Positions 53,904 to 64,000 of a DNA stretch of 64,000 nt are shown here, in pieces. Source of the DNA: Pedobacter sp. AJM. GTDB lineage: Bacteria; Bacteroidota; Bacteroidia; Sphingobacteriales; Sphingobacteriaceae. A program made the translations under genes and the position numbers. A model generated the notes under the pieces. That model searched no databases and was not told the DNA's origin. It saw nothing but the letters and a program-made list of their open reading frames with translations. The stretch covers positions 1 to 64,000 of the forward strand of contig NZ_NHOT01000012.1 of the NCBI RefSeq assembly GCF_002197755.1, given 5' to 3'. How positions within the stretch are numbered: the stretch's first letter is position 1; each line of letters opens with the position of its first letter.

Positions 53904-56501
53904 ATGGCGGTAAGGGGAAACCAGTTTAAAACCAATACATTCAGAGATAAAGGTGCTGAAAATGCATCAGGCAGGTCATCTTTTAATCGCCAGCCTAAAG
54001 GAAAAAGAGAGTATCTGCCGAGCTTCGACTTGCAGGATGGCCGTGCTGTGAAAATTGCAGGACTGTTTTTTGTCATCCTTTCCTTATATTTCTTAATCGC
54101 TTTTACGTCCTATTTATTTACCTGGCAGGACGATCAGAGTTATGTGATCGACGCCAACGGCGGCTGGGGGAATTTATTCAAGACAGCAGAGGAGTTGAAA
54201 GATGCCGGTGTGACTACGCCTGTTGTTCAGAACTGGCTGGGAAAGTTCGGTGCGCTGTTATCGCATCAGTTTATTTATGAGTGGTTTGGCATTGCCTCCT
54301 TTTTATTTGTACTGGCGTTTTTTATTATCGGCTACCGCTTATTGTTTAAAGTCAAAATCCTTTCCATTTCTAAAACACTGGGGTATAGTTTTTTCTTTCT
54401 GTTGTTCATTTCCCTAACCTTAGGTTTTGCACATGGCTTCTGGGCAGAATCGCCACATTATGTAGAAGGTGAGTTTGGCTACTGGAGCAACAAATTACTG
54501 GCTGCGCAGATTGGTGCCGCCGGGGTTGCCGGTTTAATTGCCTTTGCAGGCTTATCCATTCTGATCATTGCCTATAACATTGATTTTAAATTTCCCGAAC
54601 GTAAAGAAAAGGAAGTTTATCTCGACAATGAAACGCCTGATTTTGTAAATGAGGTGCGCGAGAAATTTGCCAACAAAAGAGAAGAAGATGAACGCTCTGC
54701 ACCAATCGAATTTCCTGTTCGGGATAAATCGGGAACAGGAAATGAAAGAAAGCAGCAGAACGTGGTTTTACAGCCCAGCCGGTTTGAACAAAAAGAAGTA
54801 GAAGATGTGGTAATTGCACCAGTAGTGTTATCGCCAATGGCCACCAATTTACCCATTGCCACTTCGGTGGCTGAATCCATGCCCCTAACAGTTGAGCCTG
54901 TAATTGATGAAGAAAAAGAACCTGTTTTTACCATAGAAAAAACAGAAGAAGATAAAAAATCAGATGACCTGGTCGAACAGTTTGGTAATTACGATGAAAA
55001 GCTGGATTTGTCCGGCTATAAATACCCTACGGTAGATTTACTGGAAAATTATGGTACCAATAAGATTTCAGTTAATGCCGAAGAACTGGAAGCCAATAAA
55101 AACAAGATTGTAGAAACCCTTAATCATTATAACATCGAAATTGATAAGATTAAGGCAACCATTGGTCCAACGGTTACGCTCTATGAAATTATCCCGGCAC
55201 CTGGTGTCCGGATTTCAAAGATCAAAAACCTGGAAGATGATATTGCACTCTCTTTAGCGGCATTAGGGATCCGGATTATTGCACCCATGCCCGGAAAAGG
55301 AACCATTGGTATTGAAGTACCGAATCAACATCCGGAAATGGTGCCGATGCGCAGTATTCTGAACACCGAAAAATGGACATCCAATACGATGGATCTGCCG
55401 ATCGCACTCGGTAAAACGATCAGTAATGAAGTTTTTATTGCTGATTTAGCCAAAATGCCCCACTTATTGGTTGCCGGGGCAACAGGGCAGGGTAAGTCAG
55501 TAGGGATTAACTCCATACTGGTTTCGCTGTTATTTAAAAAACATCCTGCACAGTTAAAATTTGTACTGGTTGATCCGAAAAAAGTAGAATTAACCTTATT
55601 CAACAGAATTGAACGCCATTTCCTGGCCAAGCTACCGGGAGAAGCGGATGCGATCATCACCGACACCAAAAAGGTGGTAAACACCCTGAATTCACTTTGT
55701 ATCGAGATGGATCAGCGCTATGATCTATTGAAAGATGCACAGGTCAGAAACCTGAAGGAATACAATGATAAATTCATCAAACGGAAGTTAAATCCAAACA
55801 ACGGACACCGCTTTTTACCTTTTATTGTATTGGTGGTGGATGAGTTCGCCGATTTAATGATGACCGCTGGTAAAGAAGTGGAGGCGCCCATTGCCCGTTT
55901 GGCACAGCTGGCACGGGCCATCGGGATTCACCTGGTACTGGCGACACAGCGTCCGTCTGTGAATATCATTACCGGAACCATCAAAGCCAACTTCCCGGCC
56001 AGGTTAGCCTTCAGGGTTTTATCTAAAATTGATTCGCGTACCATTTTGGATAGTGGTGGTGCCGACCAGCTGATCGGCAGGGGAGATATGCTCTTATCTA
56101 CCGGAAGCGACTTAATCCGCCTACAATGTGCATTTGTGGATACACCAGAGGTGGATCGGATTTCTGAATTTATCGGCAATCAACGTGGTTATGCTGATGC
56201 GTATCAACTGCCTGAATATATCGATGAAGCTGGTGAAGGCAGTAAGGCAGATTTTGATCCGAATGAGCGTGATAAGTTTTTTGAGGATGCTGCAAGGCTG
56301 ATTGTGATGCACCAGCAAGGTTCTACCTCCCTCATTCAGCGTAAACTGAAGCTGGGCTATAACCGTGCCGGCCGGATCATTGATCAACTGGAAGCTGCCG
56401 GTATTGTCGGTCCTTTTGAAGGCAGTAAGGCACGTGAAGTTTTATATCCGGATGAATATTCTTTGGAACAATTCTTGAATGAGATGAATAGCAAAGATTA
56501 G
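53904..56501 (+). CDS. ftsK: DNA translocase FtsK
   Basis: 865 residues. Four membrane helices lie in the first ~220 residues, then an acidic/proline-poor linker (about 230-370), then the RecA-like motor: Walker A GATGQGKS (about 527-534), Walker B FIVLVVDEFADLM (about 641-653), and arginine-finger segments AFRVLSKIDSRTILDSGGADQLIGRGDML. The C-terminal winged-helix gamma domain is DAARLIVMHQQGSTSLIQRKLKLGYNRAGRIIDQLEAAGIVGPFEGSKAREVL, which reads KOPS-like sites. It pumps chromosome DNA through the closing septum. LolA follows at 60 bp. Confidence 0.95.
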   Translation: MAVRGNQFKTNTFRDKGAENASGRSSFNRQPKGKREYLPSFDLQDGRAVKIAGLFFVILSLYFLIAFTSYLFTWQDDQSYVIDANGGWGNLFKTAEELKDAGVTTPVVQNWLGKFGALLSHQFIYEWFGIASFLFVLAFFIIGYRLLFKVKILSISKTLGYSFFFLLFISLTLGFAHGFWAESPHYVEGEFGYWSNKLLAAQIGAAGVAGLIAFAGLSILIIAYNIDFKFPERKEKEVYLDNETPDFVNEVREKFANKREEDERSAPIEFPVRDKSGTGNERKQQNVVLQPSRFEQKEVEDVVIAPVVLSPMATNLPIATSVAESMPLTVEPVIDEEKEPVFTIEKTEEDKKSDDLVEQFGNYDEKLDLSGYKYPTVDLLENYGTNKISVNAEELEANKNKIVETLNHYNIEIDKIKATIGPTVTLYEIIPAPGVRISKIKNLEDDIALSLAALGIRIIAPMPGKGTIGIEVPNQHPEMVPMRSILNTEKWTSNTMDLPIALGKTISNEVFIADLAKMPHLLVAGATGQGKSVGINSILVSLLFKKHPAQLKFVLVDPKKVELTLFNRIERHFLAKLPGEADAIITDTKKVVNTLNSLCIEMDQRYDLLKDAQVRNLKEYNDKFIKRKLNPNNGHRFLPFIVLVVDEFADLMMTAGKEVEAPIARLAQLARAIGIHLVLATQRPSVNIITGTIKANFPARLAFRVLSKIDSRTILDSGGADQLIGRGDMLLSTGSDLIRLQCAFVDTPEVDRISEFIGNQRGYADAYQLPEYIDEAGEGSKADFDPNERDKFFEDAARLIVMHQQGSTSLIQRKLKLGYNRAGRIIDQLEAAGIVGPFEGSKAREVLYPDEYSLEQFLNEMNSKD

Positions 56502-56561
56502 ATTAAACCAATCGTAAAAAATCTACTCTGACCTTTCACAAGAAAATTTAAAAGCACAAAA

Positions 56562-57212
56562 ATGAAGAAATTAATTTCAGCAGTCATGGTGGTTGTTGCC
56601 TTTACCACATCAACTTATGCCCAGACTGATGCCAGGGCTAAAGCAATTTTAGCAGAAGTAAGTAAAAAATATAAGTCGTACAACGTAGTTAAAACAGATT
56701 TTTCTTTCACATTGGATAACCCCAAAGCAAAGGTGAAGGAAACACAGCAAGGTACCTTGTATGTTAAGGCCAACTCCAATAAGTATAAGGTGGCCATGAC
56801 CAATCAGGAATTGTTCAGTGATGGTAAAAGCCAGTGGACTTATCTTAAAAAAGACAAAGAAGTTCAGGTGAGTAACGTAGATAACAGTGGTGATGCCATT
56901 AATCCGGCTAAAATCTTTACCGTTTATGAAAAAGGTTTTAAATATGTTTATACCGGGGAAGAAAAGGCTGGTGCGAAAACCTATCAGATGATTGATTTAA
57001 CACCGGTTGATACCAAAAAATCAATCTTTAAAGTTCGCTTAAGTATTGATAAGGCTGCCAAACAGATTGCAAATGTGGTGTTGTTTGATAAGAATGGAAA
57101 CAAATACACGTATAACGTGAAAACTTTCTCGCCCAATGTGAATGTACCGGAAACGACTTTTGCCTTTGATGCCAAAAAATATCCTGGTGTGGAAGTAGTT
57201 GATTTGCGGTAA
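56562..57212 (+). CDS. lolA: LolA-like outer-membrane lipoprotein carrier
   Basis: 216 residues with a signal peptide (MKKLISAVMVVVAFTTSTYA, cut before QTD). The mature part is beta-rich with the LolA pattern: VVKTDFSFTLDNPKAKVKETQQGTLYVKANSNKYKVAMTNQELFSDGKSQWTYLKKDKEVQVSN and a C-terminal FAFDAKKYPGVEVVDL. It would shuttle lipoproteins across the periplasm. LolA next to ftsK is a common order in many bacteria and supports the call. Confidence 0.88.
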   Translation: MKKLISAVMVVVAFTTSTYAQTDARAKAILAEVSKKYKSYNVVKTDFSFTLDNPKAKVKETQQGTLYVKANSNKYKVAMTNQELFSDGKSQWTYLKKDKEVQVSNVDNSGDAINPAKIFTVYEKGFKYVYTGEEKAGAKTYQMIDLTPVDTKKSIFKVRLSIDKAAKQIANVVLFDKNGNKYTYNVKTFSPNVNVPETTFAFDAKKYPGVEVVDLR

Positions 57213-57482
57213 CAGCTTCAGCAGACGGCGCTTGTTTCAGCGCTATAGATATGATAAGCGATTTAATCAGGATATTCCCTGGTTAGATCGCTTTTTCTTT
57301 GATATACCTTTTACTTCCTATTTAATTACAAGTCATGCGTATCCACTGGATATCCGGTTTTGTAATTTAAGTTCTTTTTTAGTTACGGGAACGATTGCAT
57401 AGATATATATGATTTATGATACATTATTGTAGTTTAATTATTAATTTCATCATCATTAATAACCAAATATAATTCTATTATC
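57213..57482. other. Intergenic region before the PL9-like gene (270 bp)
   Basis: AT-rich. I see no terminator with a T-run, no repeat and no exact TAnnTTTG box. A 67-codon frame beginning in the lolA end is a chance frame. Confidence 0.35.
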
Positions 57483-58385
57483 ATGAAAAAAAACTCAGGT
57501 ATTCTCGTACTCGGGATGGCTATTGCATTGTTCGGATGCAAGAAAGACAACACTACAACGGCTGAAGTTGCAGATGGTCAATCCATCGTTCAGCCAAACA
57601 AATTGGGATTGGCAGCTGCGGCTGTAAGTGCTACAGTAACTACTGAAGCAGCTTTAAAAACTGCCATATCAAATGCCCAACCGGGCGATGTGATCACGGT
57701 AAGTGGTACCATCTATCTCACCAGCACCCTGCAGTTACTTAAAAGTGGTACATCCGGTTCTAAAATTAATTTTACCGGTGGCATATTGGATTGTTCCCGT
57801 ATTTCCGGTGCCAACTGGGGTGTAAAAGTAAATGGAAGTTACTGGAATATTACCAATATGACGATCAGAAACGCACCTGACTGCGGGATTGTTTTCCAAA
57901 CCGGGGGCTACAATTATGTCAATAAGGTAACAACCTATGGAAACAAAGATTCCGGACTTCAGATTTATAACGGCGGTCACCATAACAGCATTAATAATTC
58001 CACCTCATACGATAATTATGATGTGGCCAATGGAGGTGAAAATGCAGATGGTTATGCCTGTAAGTTATCTGCCGGAGCGGGTAATCAGTTTAACGCCTGC
58101 AATGCCTACCACAATTCTGATGATGGCTGGGATTTATACGGACAACCTTATACGGTTGTCATGAACAATTGTACGGCCACCAATAATGGTTATGGTACCA
58201 ATGGTGATGGAAATGGCTTCAAGCTGGGCAGTGCCGGGCAAAATGTTGCGCATACGGTGACCAATTGCACCGCCAGCAATAACAAAGGAAGCGGTTATGA
58301 TGGAAATGGAAATGCTGGCCACATCACAACCACAGGCAGCGGTGGCTCCGGTAATGTAAAAGGACTTTTTAACCGGATTAACTAA
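57483..58385 (+). CDS. PL9-like right-handed parallel beta-helix lipoprotein
   Basis: 300 residues. The signal ends in a lipobox (AIALFGCKKD), so it is a lipoprotein. The body has beta-helix coils with many N and G: GGILDCSRISGANWGVKVNGSYWNITNMTIRNAPDCGIVFQTGG, NADGYACKLSAGAGNQFNACNAYHNSDDGWDLYGQPYTVVMNNC. NADGYACKL...NSDDGWDLY is the core pattern of pectate lyase family 9, with acidic residues and K where PL9 enzymes have their calcium and catalytic base. At 300 residues it is at the short end. The substrate is likely pectin-like polysaccharide, but no sus-like genes are adjacent. Confidence 0.78.
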   Translation: MKKNSGILVLGMAIALFGCKKDNTTTAEVADGQSIVQPNKLGLAAAAVSATVTTEAALKTAISNAQPGDVITVSGTIYLTSTLQLLKSGTSGSKINFTGGILDCSRISGANWGVKVNGSYWNITNMTIRNAPDCGIVFQTGGYNYVNKVTTYGNKDSGLQIYNGGHHNSINNSTSYDNYDVANGGENADGYACKLSAGAGNQFNACNAYHNSDDGWDLYGQPYTVVMNNCTATNNGYGTNGDGNGFKLGSAGQNVAHTVTNCTASNNKGSGYDGNGNAGHITTTGSGGSGNVKGLFNRIN

Positions 58386-58519
58386 GATCCTGCGCTTCGT
58401 GAAAGGTTCAGTTGGAAACAGCTGAACCTTTTTTGTTTTATTTAAAGCAGATTTCAGGTATATCGTAGGACCATATATGGCTTTTTTTGAAAAGCAATAG
58501 CCGTAATGCTTAGGTTGCA

Positions 58520-58583
58520 GCAGTCCCGCCATTCGCTATAGGCCCGATGAAGAATCGGGCGCTGCCGCTGCTGTCGGGTTTAG
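58520..58583 (-). repeat. REP-like palindromic element, CTAAACCCGA...GCGGGACTGC family, copy 2
   Basis: Reverse-strand relative of 18085-18150. Read on the minus strand it begins CTAAACCCGA, contains an inner hairpin GCCCGATT...AATCGGGC-like (CCCGAT/ATCGGG around TCTTC-type loop) and ends GCGGGACTGC. Ends are conserved while the inner stem differs, as expected of a REP-like family. Confidence 0.6.
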
Positions 58584-58646
58584 GTGGCCTGGTGCTTTTA
58601 AGAGACAATAAGTGTCGAGGATCTGGATGACAGGTTTACAAACAAT

Positions 58647-58727
58647 CATCATCCCGACCGTAGCGGAGAGATCTTTTAATCCAGTCCAAAGATCTCTCCA
58701 CTCCGCATTGCTCCGGTCGGGATGACG
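58647..58727. repeat. Long palindromic element, CATCCCGACCG...CGGTCGGGATG
   Basis: The 11-bp perfect outer arms CATCCCGACCG (58650-58660) and CGGTCGGGATG (58714-58724) enclose GCGGAGAGATCTTT and AAAGATCTCTCC arms with a small loop. It is a strong, near-continuous hairpin of about 75 nt in the 500-bp gap after the PL9-like gene. Its architecture matches the CGTCATTGC-type elements elsewhere, but the sequence is different. Confidence 0.65.
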
Positions 58728-58879
58728 CCAATCTTAGCATATGCCATTGATAAAATGATAGGGCTTTCATGATCGATTGTTAATAGAACCCCAATTTTCT
58801 GGATATTTTTATTTTAGAAATGAACATGGTGATTGATAAAATTTTCATCATGTATTTATGAATGCTCCACAGATTTCTC

Positions 58880-58887
58880 TAAGTTTG
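58880..58887 (+). promoter_or_regulatory. Promoter -7 box TAAGTTTG, 5 nt before ATG
   Basis: Exact TAnnTTTG ending five bases before the ATG at 58893. Predicts a leaderless message. No clear -33 box. Confidence 0.45.
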
Positions 58888-58892
58888 TTCTA

Positions 58893-59165
58893 ATGTCGTT
58901 GCCTTTAACCAATCATTCATTAGAAAAATTAGAGCAATTGCTTTTGGCGATGGGTTTTAAGGTTCGTTATGAAAAAGGAAACTTTAAAACCGGCTCTTGC
59001 CTGTTGGAGCATAACAGGATAATCGTGGTCAATAAGTTTTCAAACCTGGAAGGGAAAATCGCAGCCCTGGTTGCCCTGATTAAGCAAACCAGTCCTGATG
59101 TACATCTGTTGGATGAAAAACAACGGCAATTTTTTCATACACTACAGCAAACGGAGTTATTTTGA
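58893..59165 (+). CDS. Small protein of unknown function
   Basis: 90 residues from the ATG at 58893 (MSLPLTNHSLEKLEQLLLAMGFKVRYEKGNFKTGSCLLEH); the longer frame from 58833 would cross the promoter box. It is soluble, with strand-helix character and a conserved-looking core KVRYEKGNFKTGSCLLEHNRIIVVNKFSNLEGKIAALVALIKQ. I recall similar proteins beside metallo-hydrolase genes in Bacteroidota but know no function. The next gene starts 49 bp later on the same strand, so the two are probably cotranscribed. Confidence 0.72.
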   Translation: MSLPLTNHSLEKLEQLLLAMGFKVRYEKGNFKTGSCLLEHNRIIVVNKFSNLEGKIAALVALIKQTSPDVHLLDEKQRQFFHTLQQTELF

Positions 59166-59214
59166 TACAGATAAAGACAGCAGATGACATGTTAAGAAAG
59201 GAAGGTCATATACA

Positions 59215-59979
59215 ATGAAAGTTACTTTCTTAGGTACCGGCACTTCACAGGGCGTTCCGGTAATTGCCTGTGATTGCGAAGTTTGCCGCTCTGATGATCG
59301 GAAAAATAACCGGTTAAGGACTTCTGTTTTAATAGAAACCGGAGATAAAACCATTGTAGTGGATAGCGGGCCTGATTTCCGGTATCAGCTTCTTCGTGCG
59401 CAGGTAAAGGATCTGGATGCGGTACTGTTTACACATGAACATAAGGATCACATTGCAGGTTTAGACGATATCAGGCCGTTTAATTACCTGTTGCAAAAGG
59501 TAATAGATGTTTATGCCACCGAAAGGGTTCAAACGGCTTTAAAAAGGGAGTTCTATTATATTTTTGCGGAAACCAAATACCATGGTTTGCCGCAAATTAA
59601 CCTGCATACCGTTACCAATGGAGAAGATTTTAAAATTGGCGAAACGACCATCATTCCACTTGAAGTAATGCACCATTTATTGCCGATTACAGGCTACCGG
59701 ATTGGCGACTTTACGTACATCACCGATGCCAAAACCATATCAGAACAGAGTTTTGAAAAAATAAAAGGAACAAAAATATTGGTGATTAATGCATTACAGA
59801 AAGAACCCCATATTTCACATTTTACTCTGGACGAAGCCATTGCCTTTGCAGAAAAGGTTGGGGCAGAAACGACGTACCTGACACATATCAGCCATAATTT
59901 AGGCCTACATGCGGAGGTAGAAAAAGATTTACCAGCGCATATCAGGCTGGCTTATGACGGGCTGAATTTCGAATGTTAG
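59215..59979 (+). CDS. MBL-fold metallo-hydrolase (PhnP/lipoate-protein-ligase-associated type)
   Basis: 254 residues. MKVTFLGTGTSQGVPVIACDCEVC is the hallmark start, with the cysteine pair of the PhnP-like group (CDCEVCRS). The metal-binding signature THEHKDHIAGLDDIRPFN (HxHxDH variant) is near 80-97, the LEVMHHLLPITGYRIGDFTYITDAK histidine near 151, and LTHISHNLG near 227. It is most likely a phosphodiesterase or cyclic-phosphate hydrolase. It is preceded by GGAAGG, one of the few purine-rich leader sites seen here. Confidence 0.88.
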   Translation: MKVTFLGTGTSQGVPVIACDCEVCRSDDRKNNRLRTSVLIETGDKTIVVDSGPDFRYQLLRAQVKDLDAVLFTHEHKDHIAGLDDIRPFNYLLQKVIDVYATERVQTALKREFYYIFAETKYHGLPQINLHTVTNGEDFKIGETTIIPLEVMHHLLPITGYRIGDFTYITDAKTISEQSFEKIKGTKILVINALQKEPHISHFTLDEAIAFAEKVGAETTYLTHISHNLGLHAEVEKDLPAHIRLAYDGLNFEC

Positions 59980-60013
59980 CGTTATCTAACCTAAAAGCTT
60001 CAGTCATTTGTGA

Positions 60014-60652
60014 TCAAAAAATGAAACTGCCGCAATACGTACTCCCAGATATCTCCATTCTATCGTCTGCAATGAAAGCCATCCAGGTGTGAAATGTATT
60101 TCCTTTATAAAAAGAAGGAATTTCCAGGCTTTCCCTTTCTTTTGACCGTCTGGCGCCGCTTGTTTCATAGATGGCCGTTTTGTTGTCCACATCATAAACC
60201 ATTAACATCACCTGGTCATTTTGCCTGGTGTAATCGCCGTTAGCATTATCCGTCCAGCTGAAATGTACACCCTCATCGTCGTGTTCCAGCTTAACCCCCT
60301 CCACACCGCTGAGGTTTCCAAAGCTTAAACGCACAGCGGCATAGTCAATTTCGCCGGCGGCATTTTGGGCATTCAGCATGTTATAGGATTTCGCCACATT
60401 ATGGGCGGTCATTTCGCGCTTTTTCGACTCCAGGTTAAAACCAATCCGGATAAAACCAACTATAGGGCTCAAGAAGGTCTGCATCATAGTAAAACGGGAT
60501 CTGCAGGCCTTTTGATCAGCAGTACCGGTTTTGTTTTTGATGGATTTTCTGCGTTTACTCCTGATCACCCATTTCCCGTTCAGGTAATAACCGGTCACGG
60601 CGCCCACCGACCCGGTGAAACCCCCGTTAATTCCGTTTTCTATTTTTCCCAT
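60014..60652 (-). CDS. DUF6266 family protein
   Basis: 212 residues. The opening MGKIENGINGGFTGSVGAVTGYYLNGKWVIRSKRRKSIKNKTG is characteristic of DUF6266, common in Pedobacter. It is followed by QKACRSRFTMMQTFLSPIVGFIRIGFN and beta-rich C-terminal segments (HFSWTDNANGDYTRQNDQVMLMVYDV). There is no signal peptide. Function unknown. No homologue sits next to it. Confidence 0.82.
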   Translation of the reverse strand: MGKIENGINGGFTGSVGAVTGYYLNGKWVIRSKRRKSIKNKTGTADQKACRSRFTMMQTFLSPIVGFIRIGFNLESKKREMTAHNVAKSYNMLNAQNAAGEIDYAAVRLSFGNLSGVEGVKLEHDDEGVHFSWTDNANGDYTRQNDQVMLMVYDVDNKTAIYETSGARRSKERESLEIPSFYKGNTFHTWMAFIADDRMEISGSTYCGSFIF

Positions 60653-60969
60653 GATGGCATTAGTTTATGTAATACAATATAGCAAATTGCTGATTAATAA
60701 ACCAATAAGTTGTATTTGCTTCTGACTTACGCCGGCTTTTATTCGGGTACAATTGTCAGAAGTCCGACGAAACCCCGACTTAAATGCGGCGAAAGTCCGT
60801 CAAAACAGTTAGGCGGTTGTATCTGCCTTTATATGGTGTCCCACAACTAAAATAAGGTTACCATAGGAAGTTGTGTTACTGTATCGGGTTGACCAGGTTA
60901 AGATTAGCTTTCTAGAATATCAGTTCAAAAAATATTTGATGAATGTTGCAAAGCGCTATGGTTAATTTA
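60653..60969. other. Intergenic region upstream of the tRNA-Leu(GAG) locus (317 bp)
   Basis: Contains the DUF6266 leader and the upstream part of the tRNA promoter. I see short words (TCCGACGAAACCCCGAC, GCGGCGAAAGTCCG) but no full hairpin, ORF or repeat copy. Confidence 0.35.
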
Positions 60970-60977
60970 TATATTTG
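60970..60977 (+). promoter_or_regulatory. Promoter -7 box TATATTTG of the tRNA-Leu(GAG) locus
   Basis: Exact TAnnTTTG. TTG at 60946-60948 gives a spacer of about 21 nt. It lies 12 bp before the first, broken tRNA copy, so both that fragment and the intact tRNA would be in the same transcript. Confidence 0.6.
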
Positions 60978-60988
60978 CAACAATTCAA

Positions 60989-61030
60989 ACCCAGGTGGGC
61001 GGTCCCGATAGCTATCGGGATGGTAGACGC
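60989..61030 (+). pseudogene. 5' tRNA-Leu fragment broken by an 18-bp palindrome
   Basis: ACCCAGGTGGGCGG and TGGTAGACGC match the acceptor/D-arm part of the intact tRNA at 61056. Between them, in the D-loop position, stands TCCCGATAGCTATCGGGA (61003-61020), a perfect 18-bp palindrome. After the D-arm the similarity stops. It cannot fold as a tRNA. Confidence 0.75.
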
Positions 61031-61055
61031 TTTCGGGAATGATTAAGTAGTAAAT

Positions 61056-61139
61056 ACCCAGGTGGCGAAATTGGTAGACGCACCAGCTTGAGGGGCTGGC
61101 GCCTGTATGGGTGTGGGAGTTCGAATCTCCTCTTGGGTA
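61056..61139 (+). tRNA. tRNA-Leu (anticodon GAG), intact
   Basis: 84 nt. Acceptor ACCCAGG/CTTGGGT (one G-U), discriminator A, D-arm GGCGAAATTGGTAGACGC, anticodon stem CCAGC/GCTGG around TTGAGGG (anticodon GAG), class II variable arm, T-loop TTCGAAT. CCA is not encoded. It is the only complete copy among three similar sequences here. Confidence 0.95.
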
Positions 61140-61140
61140 C

Positions 61141-61175
61141 AAAGAGTTTGGTTTTTACCAAACTCTTTCTTGTTA
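61141..61175 (+). terminator. Terminator after tRNA-Leu(GAG)
   Basis: AAAGAGTTTGG / CCAAACTCTTT perfect 11-bp stem with a TTTTTA loop, followed by CTTGTT. It ends 9 bp before the ATG of the GIY-YIG gene, so that gene depends on read-through or an internal start. Confidence 0.75.
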
Positions 61176-61176
61176 T

Positions 61177-61461
61177 ATGGCGTCAGTTTATATTCTTTTC
61201 TCCAAAAAATTGAACCGTTATTATACTGGTAGTTGCCTGGATTTATCCCAACGACTAGATGAGCATTTACAAGGTGTTTATCCTGATAGTTTTACGAGCA
61301 AAGCTACTGACTGGGAACTTTTTCTTCATATCAATGATTTGGCATACCAGCAAGCCAGACAGATTGAACTGCATATTAAAAAAATGAAAAGTAGAACTTA
61401 CATAGAAAACCTAAAAAAATACGAAGATATTCAGACCAAGCTGATTATGCTGTACAGATAA
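61177..61461 (+). CDS. GIY-YIG nuclease domain protein
   Basis: 94 residues from the ATG at 61177 (MASVYILFSKKLNRYYTGSCLDLSQRLDEHLQG). The longer frame from 61111 would read through the tRNA and its terminator and is rejected. VYIL...YYTG is the GIY-YIG strand pair (T in place of I), with the R of RLDEH and the helix RQIELHIKKMKSRTYIENL completing the single-domain nuclease common in Bacteroidota. The gene lies between the intact tRNA-Leu and a broken tRNA-Leu copy that begins 1 bp after its stop, so it looks inserted at, or mobilised with, the tRNA. Confidence 0.9.
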   Translation: MASVYILFSKKLNRYYTGSCLDLSQRLDEHLQGVYPDSFTSKATDWELFLHINDLAYQQARQIELHIKKMKSRTYIENLKKYEDIQTKLIMLYR

Positions 61462-61462
61462 T

Positions 61463-61571
61463 GGTGGCGACCCCGATTGCTATCGGGGTGGTAGACGCAC
61501 CAGCTTGAGGGGCTGGCGCCTGTATGGGTGTGGGAGTTCGATCCGATAGCTATCGGATCTCCTCTTGGGTA
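61463..61571 (+). pseudogene. tRNA-Leu(GAG) copy broken by two palindromes
   Basis: Starts GGTGGCGA, runs through the D-arm, anticodon and variable arm identically to 61072-61124 (53 bp perfect, at 61489-61541) and ends TCTCCTCTTGGGTA. The acceptor 5' strand is missing. CCCCGATTGCTATCGGGG (61471-61488) is inserted in the D-loop and ATCCGATAGCTATCGGAT (61541-61558) in the T-loop. Both are related to the palindrome in the first fragment. It cannot be a functional tRNA. Confidence 0.8.
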
Positions 61572-61707
61572 CGCTAAAAGCTTCAGTTTATATCTTACCT
61601 GACCAAGCCAATAATGTAACTTAAAAGGCTGGTTTTTTCTGGCCTTGATACATATCAATTTCAAGCAATCTGGTGATTTGATTAATAGCTTTCTGGATTA
61701 AACAGAA

Positions 61708-61736
61708 AAGCCGTATCAATTTTTTTGATACGGCTT
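61708..61736. terminator. Terminator between the tRNA-Leu locus and the endonuclease gene
   Basis: AAGCCGTATCAA / TTGATACGGCTT perfect 12-bp stem, 5-T loop. On the minus strand it is followed by TTTTCTG, so it mainly serves the endonuclease gene. Confidence 0.75.
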
Positions 61737-61801
61737 GTTTATGGGATGCAAATTTCGCCTCTGTAAGGGTAATAGCTATATCCTCAAGTTAATAACTGAT
61801 T

Positions 61802-63232
61802 TTAGTTACCAGGATCTTTCACTTTCTCCACCACGTCTTGTATGTTCTGCGGTAAATTTGAAAGTAAATTATAACCCGTTGCACTTTCTATATCGCGGAC
61901 AGACACAATATAGTTCTTCCAGCTTGGATTTGTGCTGTTGACGTTGGGTGTGTTGATGGCAATAACCCTTGTCGAACTACTCACGCGGCTGATATCATTG
62001 TCTCCCGTTTTTAGCAGTACAGCCACTTTCCATACGTTTGCCGGCACGGTAACTTTGCCATTGTTGATGGTGTTCACTACCGACGCGCTTGCCGAACCAA
62101 TGCCGCCTGTGCCATAACTGCCCATGATCACATAAACCTCGTATCCGTTCAATGCCTGGGCGCGGAGATAGCTTTCAAAAGATTCCCATGTTTTCTGGTT
62201 GTTGTTCGGTGCCTGAGGGATCATGTTGGTCATCAGGAAAGTTGCTGAATTGGCAGTATTTGAGCTTGTACGGTCACCGCTTGGACAGTTATGACCCCTG
62301 TCAAAACCGGAACCTGAATAGCTGTTGCTCTGTACCTGGTACCAATTTGCCGGCAGGCCAGTAAATGAAGCGAAATCGTCTTTTCTGCTTGCTGCACCAG
62401 TAAAGTTGTTCGGATCCAGGTGCCAGCTTACCCAGTTTGGTGTTCCGCGGGTCATGCTGTAACTCTCGGTGTAATATTTTTGATCGATCAGGTAATTTTC
62501 TGCTGAAACCAGGTTGGCCGTAGCGCCTGATGGGTTACCAAAAAGTAAGTTTGAATTATCACCTCCGGCCGGTGGTGCATCCGCACCTGCATCCGGCGTG
62601 CCTCTTCCAGGGGTTGCTGTGGAGCCGCCGTTATCCACAGGATCCGTATCCGCTCCACCTACGGTAATGCCCGGATCACCTGTACCTTTAAAGATGATAT
62701 CGTCGATGTTGATCCTGGTTGTACCGGCTTTTTTGATCTGAAAGCGTATTTTGCCTGTTGTATTCACCTTAAAGGAATCGGTCACCAGTGTGGTGCTGGT
62801 TTCTGTAATATCCGTACCTAACTGCGTGAAGGTTTTACCACCATCGGTAGAAGCCAGAAGCTGCCAGGTTGAACTGGCATCGGTTCCATATTTGGCATGG
62901 GAAACGTAAATCATTTGAGTCCCTGCGATATCAAAGTTCATGGACAGGTAACCTGTTCTTAACCGGACAGATTTCGCGCCGTCCTTGGCATCAGCTGAAA
63001 GATTGCCCAGCAGCGCATCGCTGAATGTCCATTTGCCGGTTAGTAGCTGAACACTGTCTAACGCATAAGCGCCTTTGCTGCCGGATTCGAAAGTCTCTGT
63101 TATGGCATAAGCAGTTGGCGATTTTGGTGGTGTGGTTGGTGTTTCATCTCCGATGCTTGTTTTTTTTGAACAGGAGGATAGGATCAGGATGCCGATAAAT
63201 CCTGAATAGGTAAGGATGTTTTTTAATTTCAT
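61802..63232 (-). CDS. DNA/RNA non-specific endonuclease (NucA type), lipoprotein
   Basis: 476 residues. The signal ends in LILSSC, a lipobox, so the mature protein is lipid-anchored at the surface or periplasm. Residues about 40-190 form a jelly-roll/CBM-like beta domain (AYAITETFESGSKGAYALDSVQLLTGKWTF). A proline/glycine linker with PVDNGGST...PGRGTPDAGADAPPAGG follows, then the nuclease with the active-site DRGH motif SGFDRGHNCPSGDRT (about 310-324) and an Asn in FLMTNMIPQAPNNNQKTWE that binds Mg. It probably degrades extracellular nucleic acid for nutrients. It ends 65 bp from the terminator. Confidence 0.92.
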   Translation of the reverse strand: MKLKNILTYSGFIGILILSSCSKKTSIGDETPTTPPKSPTAYAITETFESGSKGAYALDSVQLLTGKWTFSDALLGNLSADAKDGAKSVRLRTGYLSMNFDIAGTQMIYVSHAKYGTDASSTWQLLASTDGGKTFTQLGTDITETSTTLVTDSFKVNTTGKIRFQIKKAGTTRINIDDIIFKGTGDPGITVGGADTDPVDNGGSTATPGRGTPDAGADAPPAGGDNSNLLFGNPSGATANLVSAENYLIDQKYYTESYSMTRGTPNWVSWHLDPNNFTGAASRKDDFASFTGLPANWYQVQSNSYSGSGFDRGHNCPSGDRTSSNTANSATFLMTNMIPQAPNNNQKTWESFESYLRAQALNGYEVYVIMGSYGTGGIGSASASVVNTINNGKVTVPANVWKVAVLLKTGDNDISRVSSSTRVIAINTPNVNSTNPSWKNYIVSVRDIESATGYNLLSNLPQNIQDVVEKVKDPGN

Positions 63233-63590
63233 GCTTTGATTTTAATGTCTAGTTGTTTGCGTTAACATAGATCATTTTTCAATGCGGCACGAAGGTATGG
63301 AGAAAAGATGTCTGTTGTGTTAAGTTAATGTTAACACAAAGTAGGTGATTGTAATTGGGTAGAATGCTGGTGTTTAATGCTCGTTTCGCCACGGTAACTA
63401 CCTGTTTCACCACGTTCGATGATTGGTTTTGATTTCTTTGGCTGATTTATTTGGCTGAATTGATAGGGGAAGTCTCTGTTAACCAACCCAAATTAATTAA
63501 CTGTTATAAACTGGTCCGGCAAATTTATACTTACTGTTTTTCTCAGCTTTTGCTGTATGATATCAAAAATCATTGATTTATTAAGTTTTT
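63233..63590. other. Intergenic region upstream of the endonuclease gene (358 bp)
   Basis: Holds the endonuclease promoter. GTTAATGTTAACAC-type palindromic words occur near 63321-63337. No gene, tRNA or repeat copy is visible. Confidence 0.35.
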
Positions 63591-63594
63591 GAAA

Positions 63595-63640
63595 AGCACA
63601 AGTCAGCCACAACAGTTCCGCAACTCCCAAGACTTGTGCT
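63595..63640. other. Inverted repeat AGCACAAGTC...GACTTGTGCT
   Basis: Two perfect 10-bp arms (63595-63604 and 63631-63640) separated by 26 bp. It may be a terminator hairpin of the partial minus-strand frame to the right, or an operator. There is no T-run immediately after the right arm on either strand. Confidence 0.5.
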
Positions 63641-63818
63641 AAGAAAGGAGATGTAAATTATTATTAATGGAATTCATTGGATTGTTTGTTTCCAAAGTTG
63701 TAAGTTTAAACTATTATAATATTTCTCAGATAACTTCGCTCTCATTATGAAAACAGAAATCTTGACTTCTTCATTTTCTATATTTTGTAGAAAGAATATT
63801 GTCTTCAACCCAAATAAT

Positions 63819-63998
63819 TCAAATCTTACTTCTTTTTGGATTCAAAAATTGGCTTATATTGACTTTGGTTAAACCAATAAAAGTCTTTAAACTGCGAGGC
63901 TTGTTAAGCCTTTGATTTACACTAAATATTAATGTGTATCCTTTTGAAATGGATTTAGGCCCTATCTCTAACTTCTTATAACCATTGTTTACTATGCC
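63819..63998 (-). CDS. Probable C-terminal part of a protein running off the right edge
   Basis: An open minus-strand frame from the window edge reads 59 codons to a TGA at 63819-63821, ending YTLIFSVNQRLNKPRSLKT...NISQFLNPKRSKI. It has protein-like composition but no recognisable domain. The flanking DNA (63650-64000) is visibly more AT-rich than the rest of the window, so it may be acquired. The start lies outside the window. An open run of this length could still be chance. Confidence 0.4.
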   Translation of the reverse strand, partial: GIVNNGYKKLEIGPKSISKGYTLIFSVNQRLNKPRSLKTFIGLTKVNISQFLNPKRSKI

Positions 63999-64000
63999 GA

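Follow-up and report, generated by a model that had tools for sequence, protein, structure and literature searches.

The window analysed here, a stretch of 64,000 nucleotides from Pedobacter sp. AJM (contig NZ_NHOT01000012.1, positions 1 to 64,000), contains an intact tRNA-Leu(GAG) gene followed by a small GIY-YIG nuclease gene, the two standing between broken copies of the same tRNA, and this arrangement is examined below as a candidate mobile element. All of its genes and tRNA copies lie on the forward (+) strand. The intact tRNA occupies 61056..61140 (ARAGORN; Rfam RF00005 gives 61056-61139) and is followed by a terminator-like hairpin at 61141..61168 (inverted repeat I4), which is probably part of the load of the element, and by the nuclease gene at 61177..61461 (ATG at 61177, TAA at 61459-61461), which encodes 94 amino acids and matches PF01541. 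At 61463, 1 bp past the stop codon, tRNA homology restarts (GGTGGCGA) and a displaced 3' copy of the tRNA extends to 61572. A direct repeat of 53 bp, exact in its two copies, is shared by the intact tRNA (61072..61124) and the displaced one (61489..61541) and flanks the nuclease gene. Upstream, at 60989..61030 (repeat D2), there is a 5' tRNA-Leu fragment comprising approximately the first 26 nt of the tRNA, a probable remnant of an earlier insertion. The first-pass annotation, made from the letters of the window, had already reported the two broken copies around the intact tRNA and the gene, the terminator, the perfect 53-bp repeat and the third copy starting 1 bp after the stop, and all of these are borne out (ARAGORN, Rfam, PF01541). 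The palindromes, the tandem arrays, the wide spread and the sister clade described below go beyond it.

Palindromes of the CCGATAGCTATCGG type, perfect or nearly so and as such without a strand, interrupt each of the two broken copies. The D loop of the 5' fragment is filled by TCCCGATAGCTATCGGGA (61003..61020), and in the 3' copy the near-perfect CCCCGATTGCTATCGGGG (61471..61488) stands in place of the D-loop AAT. With a 15-nt insert, TCCGATAGCTATCGG (61542..61556, no strand), lying in the T loop between GTTCGA and ATCTCC and bracketed by tRNA homology, the displaced copy holds two hairpins. Allowing one mismatch at most, CGATAGCTATCG has three sites in the 64 kb, all of them at this locus (one mismatched), against 0.05 expected, and CCGATAGCTATCGG is counted seven times in the 4.88-Mb genome against zero for the reversed control. 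Three interspersed repeats at G000:C24:480-1500 (L013) hold CCGATAGCTATCGG between GCGGGAT and ATGACGA in a REP-like context, REP standing for repetitive extragenic palindrome (loci are numbered with L and genomes with G throughout, G000 being the source genome). Similar 5' fragments with no GIY-YIG gene nearby are present in L023, L033, L052, L054, L089 and L093, the palindrome of L052 being imperfect, and L044 has five palindrome-bearing 5' fragment units of approximately 65 bp each in tandem. Past the displaced copy of the window, the first 22 bases (61573..61594, +) resemble by eye, in comparison with the element start of L027, the start of an element terminator joined to the start of a GIY-YIG gene, possibly a remnant of a second tandem element after deletion. 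A group I intron with an intron-encoded endonuclease is ruled out; the tRNA is contiguous and the Rfam scan of 60900-61750 gave no group I intron.

The window protein is matched by PF01541 with an E-value of 2.1e-8 (34.8 bits against a cut-off of 22.6), and the catalytic Y, Y, R, H and E are all present, the invariant columns over 16 rows being Y4, Y15, G17, R25, H29 and E63. Its AlphaFold model has a predicted local distance difference test score (pLDDT) of 94.1. In profile comparison the closest solved structures are those of UPF0213 (1zg2, 2.6e-12, and 1ywl), followed by SLX1 (7cq2, 1.3e-6). A fold search of the PDB gave no match below E 1e-3, with GIY-YIG domains of UPF0213, I-TevI, Slx1 and UvrC at ranks 1-4, 6, 8, 10 and 13. 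UPF0213, SLX1 and I-TevI, its relatives by fold, are nucleases of the structure-specific or homing kind, and we count them in favour of a homing element; to our knowledge, UPF0213 and SLX1 proteins have not been known as parts of tRNA cassettes. A RAYT or REPtron enzyme (a tyrosine HUH transposase) was considered and rejected, GIY-YIG being the sole Pfam family of the protein at E ≤0.001. Among the gene copies at tRNA-Leu(GAG), the ratio of nonsynonymous to synonymous substitution rates (dN/dS) is 0.06-0.39 (pairs with measurable dS; small counts), and the gene is, as judged from these substitutions, under purifying selection. The closest named relatives are in P. ginsenosidimutans (93%) and P. 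terrae (90%).

Patchy occurrence and displaced tRNA ends

The tRNA-Leu(GAG) gene was detected in all 99 genomes of the genus. With a GIY-YIG match at most 600 bp from this tRNA as the criterion, 10 of 90 loci out of these genomes are filled: L022 (the window), L027, L030, L035, L041, L044, L045, L064, L076 and L105. The gene is not fixed in the relatives, as the first-pass annotation had anticipated for a mobile element. By inspection, the genes of L030, L041, L064, L076 and one of the two in L105 are disrupted, the damage being a frameshift, a stop or a truncation. The order is inverse in L064 and L105, a displaced palindrome-bearing copy being followed by the GIY-YIG gene and then by the intact tRNA. 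In an eleventh locus, L021 (G003), the gene has decayed and stands with a broken tRNA end 0.9-1.1 kb past the intact tRNA. One terminator-like flank is found there at two places 1.1 kb apart (1586-1640 and 2667-2720, in tRNA orientation), namely after the intact tRNA-Leu and after the decayed GIY-YIG gene with the broken tRNA end. G004 (L313) has a gene of this type approximately 2.5 kb from the tRNA.

If an element inserted and rebuilt the tRNA, DNA of the host that lies directly past the tRNA in gene-free loci should now stand behind the broken copy. The gene comes after the tRNA in eight loci, of which L041 and L076 are too decayed and were left out; in the other six the 3' copy can be recognised, and these were compared with the 84 remaining loci. 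In five of the six (L027, L030, L035, L044 and L045) the sequence beyond the broken copy can be aligned, right from the start, to what follows the intact tRNA in gene-free loci, as in L027 and L063 (88% over 162 bp) or in L045, which matches L031 and L034, both without gene or palindrome. By these matches the broken 3' copy is the displaced end of the host tRNA gene. The flank after the intact tRNA in filled loci matched L041 and L076, where the gene is decayed, and also L043 and L091, which have no gene and a window-type terminator; in L030 this flank has a match of 22 bp to L038. Variable-arm differences between the intact and displaced tRNA-Leu of L035, L044 and L045 were considered as a sign of foreign tRNA bodies, a reading that would require a host tree and is not claimed here.

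Distribution, hairpins and tRNA isotypes

A profile of the tRNA-type protein finds a match in 193 of 296 Bacteroidota genomes at E 0.001, a threshold that lets in proteins of the REP type (see below) as well. The phylum set was composed of one locus per genome, the best, for the 30 best genomes (the own genome among them), and in 28 of these 30 loci a co-directional tRNA lies 3-211 nt upstream of the domain. The upstream tRNAs were called as Val, Asp, Ala, Met, Arg, Asn and Pro and, in the own genome, as a hairpin-bearing 'Ile' copy. The two other loci are L207, with a hairpin-bearing tRNA-like remnant after the gene, and L198, which is near a contig edge and has the hairpin. Sequence patterns taken from the window protein led to 55 named loci. 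In 33 or 34 of these a tRNA lies at most approximately 450 bp away, co-directional throughout, the count depending on the choice of domain in L260. The enrichment of such genes at tRNAs that the first-pass annotation had proposed to look for is consequently present in both samples, and in the sister clade, which serves as a control, 0 of 30 loci are at tRNAs. By eye, tRNA-like remnants follow the gene in the named loci L249, L252, L260, L263, L264, L266, L279, L285 and L301, and REPs accompany it in L294 and L296 (the latter an alphaproteobacterium by its title). Two of the 55 have no open frame, and the remaining ones are at contig edges or show nothing placeable.

In 16 of 20 further chosen loci of the genus a tRNA is found at most 450 bp from the GIY-YIG domain; the four others are L315, L319 and L320, with hairpin-bearing tRNA remnants, and L313, the case of G004 mentioned above. 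L319 and L320 have a tRNA-like 3' end just before the GIY-YIG frame, possibly an interrupted or truncated tRNA-Leu, and ARAGORN finds no whole tRNA there. Ten of the 20 (L303-L312) carry a GIY-YIG gene of approximately 82 amino acids followed by tRNA-Ser(GGA) or tRNA-Arg(CCT), and in L304, L306 and L308, the three with inspected flanks, a displaced 5' copy of the tRNA stands in front of the gene. A reversed layout, with other hairpin sequences such as TGCGCCCAAGGCGCA, is also seen in the Patescibacteria loci L282 (Asp) and L286 (Ser), of which the record titles name Magasanikbacteria and Portnoybacteria. No tRNA lies within 450 bp in L280, L290, L292 and L298, and no displaced copy was recognised in L287, L300 and L302. 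The units may also be repeated: at tRNA-Leu(UAA) of G058 (L168, G058:C1:2860188-2863216) there is an array of eight GIY-YIG/displaced-tRNA units, and at tRNA-Asp of G391 (L200, G391:C1:2945594-2947090) one of at least five.

Hairpins accompany the gene throughout this distribution. A TCC..GGA hairpin of at least 5 bp lies at most 105 nt past 34 of 44 GIY-YIG domains, in 26 of the 30 phylum loci (mononucleotide shuffles 0.29). As a guard against circularity, segments lying between two stretches homologous to the intact tRNA were also chosen; 52 of 57 such bracketed segments have a stem of at least 6 bp, the mean being 6.9 against 3.5 after shuffling, and they often replace the anticodon arm or occupy the T loop. 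The inner stems vary from locus to locus with the pairing preserved (TCCCGAT, TCCCGAC, TCCCGCC, TCCCGAA, TCCCGAG, TCCGTTAG and TCCGCC). In RNA folding, the displaced copy of the window is better than all of its 200 shuffles (z -3.4) and so is the Val-like copy of the own genome (z -3.5); the 5' fragment (z -2.2) and the L192 copy (z -2.9) follow, and the short L194 piece (z -0.7) and the intact tRNA (z -1.2) are not unusual.

The isotype of the tRNA goes with the protein. When the nearest co-directional tRNA, with the 'Ile' copies relabelled as Val, was mapped on a tree of 80 tRNA-type proteins, 26 changes of isotype were required against 55.8 for shuffled labels, with none of 200 shuffles as low. 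The arm that bears the hairpin likewise requires 7 changes on the protein tree (37 rows) against 12.2, with 1 of 500 shuffles as low, eight loci in which both arms were hit or the place was ambiguous having been dropped. The Met cassettes belong to two protein groups and have their hairpins in different arms, T in three and the anticodon side in five, so that the choice of arm points to the nuclease, not to the tRNA. On these trees, each nuclease lineage is shown to be largely faithful to one tRNA isotype.

The source genome itself (G000, 4.88 Mb in 28 contigs) has five PF01541 matches, one of them the gene of the window. Two others lie in frames of 615 and 457 amino acids, presumably UvrC and a protein of the exonuclease type. 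A match at a contig edge adjoins two copies that ARAGORN calls tRNA-Ile(UAU) (G000:C6:141-220 and 580-659, L001). The first of these equals the tRNA-Val of L138 except for the anticodon arm and its neighbours, and TCCCGAC-TTTATCA-GTCGGGA stands where that arm was. Another tRNA-Ile(UAU) is called by ARAGORN in L124 (the call alone). In this group tRNA-Ile(UAU) may be a false call, the copies looking like tRNA-Val with a TCCCG..CGGGA hairpin for an anticodon arm; gene finders can then be misled, ARAGORN giving hairpin-plugged tRNA-Val copies as tRNA-Ile(UAU). A further small GIY-YIG gene of this genome, G000:C2:210-518 (L002), has REP-like repeats on its flanks.

The REP-flanked sister clade

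Of 53 small GIY-YIG loci of the genus (own genome included), 18 have a tRNA at the gene and 35 do not; the sample is not random, as it holds the 30 best matches, one per genome, and 20 loci chosen by hand, partly for forming arrays. Only 7 of the best 30 have a tRNA, and the first impression that most GIY-YIG loci of the genus are unrelated to tRNA cassettes was given up when the rest proved to be a REP-flanked sister clade. Counting REPs as GTCA motifs, the 35 loci without tRNA have 4.5 GTCA-tagged REP-like repeats per kb within 350 bp of the gene against 0.39 per kb beyond 900 bp. At least one such repeat is present in 33 of the 35 (L174 and L185 have none); for the tRNA class the figures at the same two distances are 0.32 and 0 per kb. 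In the protein tree the 35 REP-labelled rows are on one side of one branch (99/98), with the 28 tRNA rows and the contig-edge row L185 on the other (64 rows in all, with few columns). As all rows lacking a tRNA were labelled REP, the tree compares tRNA with no tRNA.

A profile of the REP-type protein finds a match in 94 of 148 genomes. Its best 30 loci are all free of tRNAs up to a distance of 450 bp, and 29 of them hold a GTCA-REP at most 400 bp away, 27 on both sides (L238 has none, L220 and L237 have one on one side). The REP-flanked clade was observed at G000:C2:210-518 (L002), within the sets L109-L138 and L218-L247, and at L323 and L325. The last two are on alphaproteobacterial plasmids, Neorhizobium (L323) and Azospirillum (L325); of the four such loci inspected, out of 20 records that matched, these two have CGTC hairpins on both sides in inverted orientation, and L324 and L326 lack such hairpins.

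These plasmid loci, the position of the window's palindrome near GTCA or TGAC tags and its restriction to genomes of the genus with more than two GIY-YIG domains (figures below) are a hint, short of proof, that the tRNA and REP branches both deal with DNA hairpins. The CGTC REP superfamily has been reported without a dedicated transposase (Di Nocera et al., 2013; PMC3733652), and the word GIY is absent from the main text of that report. The GIY-YIG nuclease of the sister clade is a candidate for the missing enzyme of the CGTC REPs, and this clade makes testable a question left from 2013, namely what moves CGTC-tagged REPs. Tentatively, and with less than even confidence, we extend this to both branches: small single-domain GIY-YIG nucleases might be the enzymes of hairpin-based selfish DNA, acting on DNA hairpin arms (tRNA arms, REP stems) and writing hairpins at the cut site, so that the tRNA-homing branch would plug the displaced arm and its sister would serve the GTCA/CGTC REPs.

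Interpretation and alternative explanations

The genome comparisons establish that insertion took place in the tRNA gene, with the tRNA rebuilt and an end of it displaced; they also establish the patchy occurrence, the arrays, the fidelity to isotypes and the hairpins of the displaced copies. Taken together, these suggest that the locus is probably a minimal tRNA-homing GIY-YIG cassette of approximately 0.4 kb with a hairpin-sealed displaced copy, cutting, homing and sealing being the inferred parts of this reading. It is of a known kind, the free-standing GIY-YIG homing endonucleases at tRNA genes, and the finding is real and general. The first-pass annotation had named a small element that duplicates tRNA sequence and a homing-type nuclease at a tRNA site as two possibilities, and both find support here, as one and the same thing. 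The cassette would consist of a tRNA-Leu 3' body, the terminator and the GIY-YIG gene, inserted near the 5' end of a host tRNA-Leu(GAG) gene; the working tRNA would have been rebuilt from the host 5' end and the 3' body of the element, and the host's own 3' part pushed beyond the nuclease gene. In the proposed cycle, the nuclease would cut an arm of an empty tRNA gene, and repair from the donor would use the two flanking tRNA copies as portable homology arms. With such arms the cassette could move between species whose other flanks differ, as the layout and the flank matches suggest. The hairpins, mostly TCC[C]G...[C]GGA and found in place of the anticodon, D or T arm, would then seal the displaced copy against cutting or recombination. 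Finally, recutting of the intact copy, or unequal exchange, may build the tandem arrays that are observed.

Several observations weigh against this interpretation. Cleavage, homing and transfer would be known here by their footprint alone, that is, presence or absence and displaced ends. In the displaced-end comparison, no other locus gave a match at E 1e-3 to the sequence past the broken copy of the window, and L021, one of the comparators of L045, is unclean (decayed gene, flank present twice), so that L031 and L034 carry that comparison. Among the named loci, 21 or 22 of 55 have no tRNA within approximately 450 bp or no open frame. Of the 69 loci that have a tRNA upstream, no more than 45 yielded bracketed segments (57 distinct ones), and 5 of the 57 lack a 6-bp stem. 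Shared host ancestry and near copies could partly explain the clustering of isotypes and arms. The AlphaFold model shows no DNA-binding domain in addition to the 93-residue fold, and no relative of the window protein or of one Val-type protein was found by tblastn in 50,697 phage records. The intact tRNA of the window is also that of gene-free loci (L019 and L022 match, 100% each), so that a nuclease cutting this tRNA would cut its own locus. The same puzzle of donor cutting is posed by SegB, for which the authors cite inefficient cutting of the donor allele and repair capacity (PMC13096335).

The hairpins lend themselves to a second explanation, which we hold to be rather doubtful. Here the palindromes would be miniature mobile hairpins in their own right, with a preference for the loops of DNA hairpins; pseudo-tRNAs and REPs would be their landing sites, and the GIY-YIG gene would be unconnected. 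The palindrome of the window does occur in REP-like repeats of its own genome, it is present in 36 of 99 genomes of the genus with up to 137 copies, and in 16 of 29 fetched genomic contexts it lies at most 20 nt from a GTCA or TGAC tag, against 5.3% expected. In displaced tRNAs, however, the hairpins often replace an arm and have inner sequences specific to the locus, and after the gene a TCC..GGA hairpin is found in most of the phylum loci (26/30). The palindrome is also present in 36 of 64 genomes with more than two GIY-YIG domains against none of 35 others, a figure uncorrected for kinship; a direct tie to GIY-YIG copy number is confounded by it and is not used as proof.

It is unlikely, in our estimate, that the displaced tRNA is a selected small RNA (a decoy, an insulator or an mRNA 3' end) and the nuclease a domesticated gene read from the tRNA promoter. 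The folding of the displaced copy, better than 200 of 200 shuffles, agrees with such a role, and so do the purifying selection on the nuclease and the co-directionality of gene and tRNA in all 28 phylum loci with an upstream tRNA. The patchiness (10/90), the decayed copies (L030, L041, L064, L076) and the arrays favour a selfish element instead, and layouts with the displaced copy upstream exist too.

Genomic islands that enter tRNA genes by means of a tyrosine integrase rebuild the tRNA and leave a displaced tRNA end at their far side. This layout is that of the cassette, the flank matches (five of six loci, the window being unmatched) fit it equally well, and the tRNA copies could accordingly be scars of an ordinary tRNA-targeting integrative element with a recombinase acting in trans and the GIY-YIG gene as cargo. 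We consider this very unlikely. Unlike such islands, the cassette measures approximately 0.4 kb and has hairpins in its displaced copy, and no integrase or other recombinase was recognised by eye in translations longer than 60 amino acids of the open reading frames of 56000-64000, the neighbours not having been searched against a library. Loci of many isotypes share the GIY-YIG gene, although they were found by searching for it, and the hairpins and the match of isotype and nuclease would be left unexplained. Simple tandem duplication of the tRNA gene, with an unrelated reading frame caught in between and subsequent decay, can hardly be true: unequal exchange can yield direct repeats and arrays, but the survey contradicts it with the same layout in 28 of 30 best loci at many isotypes with one protein clade, and with bracketed hairpins far above chance.

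The tRNA-homing cassette can also be set beside known systems. SegB is longer than one domain, and SegB-like enzymes have a separate DNA-binding region after the catalytic domain; unlike them, the window protein, with 94 amino acids and one domain, has no such region. The likeness lies elsewhere: SegB of T-even phages is a free-standing enzyme of the GIY-YIG fold that stands beside tRNA genes and is reported to cut in them and to drive tandem amplification of the tRNA region (PMC13096335). SegB is, however, a phage enzyme, whereas the gene of the window is chromosomal, has the intact tRNA on one side and its displaced counterpart on the other, and goes with hairpins in displaced copies. REPtrons (REP-associated tyrosine transposases) and the GTAG and CGTC REPs (PMC3733652) resemble the sister clade in that a small nuclease gene is flanked by its own hairpin repeats; unlike in REPtrons, the enzyme is of the GIY-YIG type, not a tyrosine transposase, and in the tRNA branch the flanking hairpins are the tRNA copies.

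Among the matches listed in the open-licence literature (title and start of the abstract), none was about tRNA-GIY-YIG cassettes in chromosomes or about GIY-YIG genes accompanied by CGTC REPs. We know of no described system that has a chromosomal two-copy tRNA sandwich, a hairpin-plugged displaced copy and a REP-flanked sister clade. If the proposed reading is true, the chromosomes of Bacteroidota carry a common family of very small tRNA-targeting mobile elements (less than 0.5 kb, one gene), undescribed within the reach of these searches, and such elements would swap part of a tRNA gene yet keep the cell alive.

Downstream of the locus, the minus-strand gene at 61802-63232 appears by eye to be lipoprotein-like, its C-terminal half resembling a DNA/RNA non-specific endonuclease.

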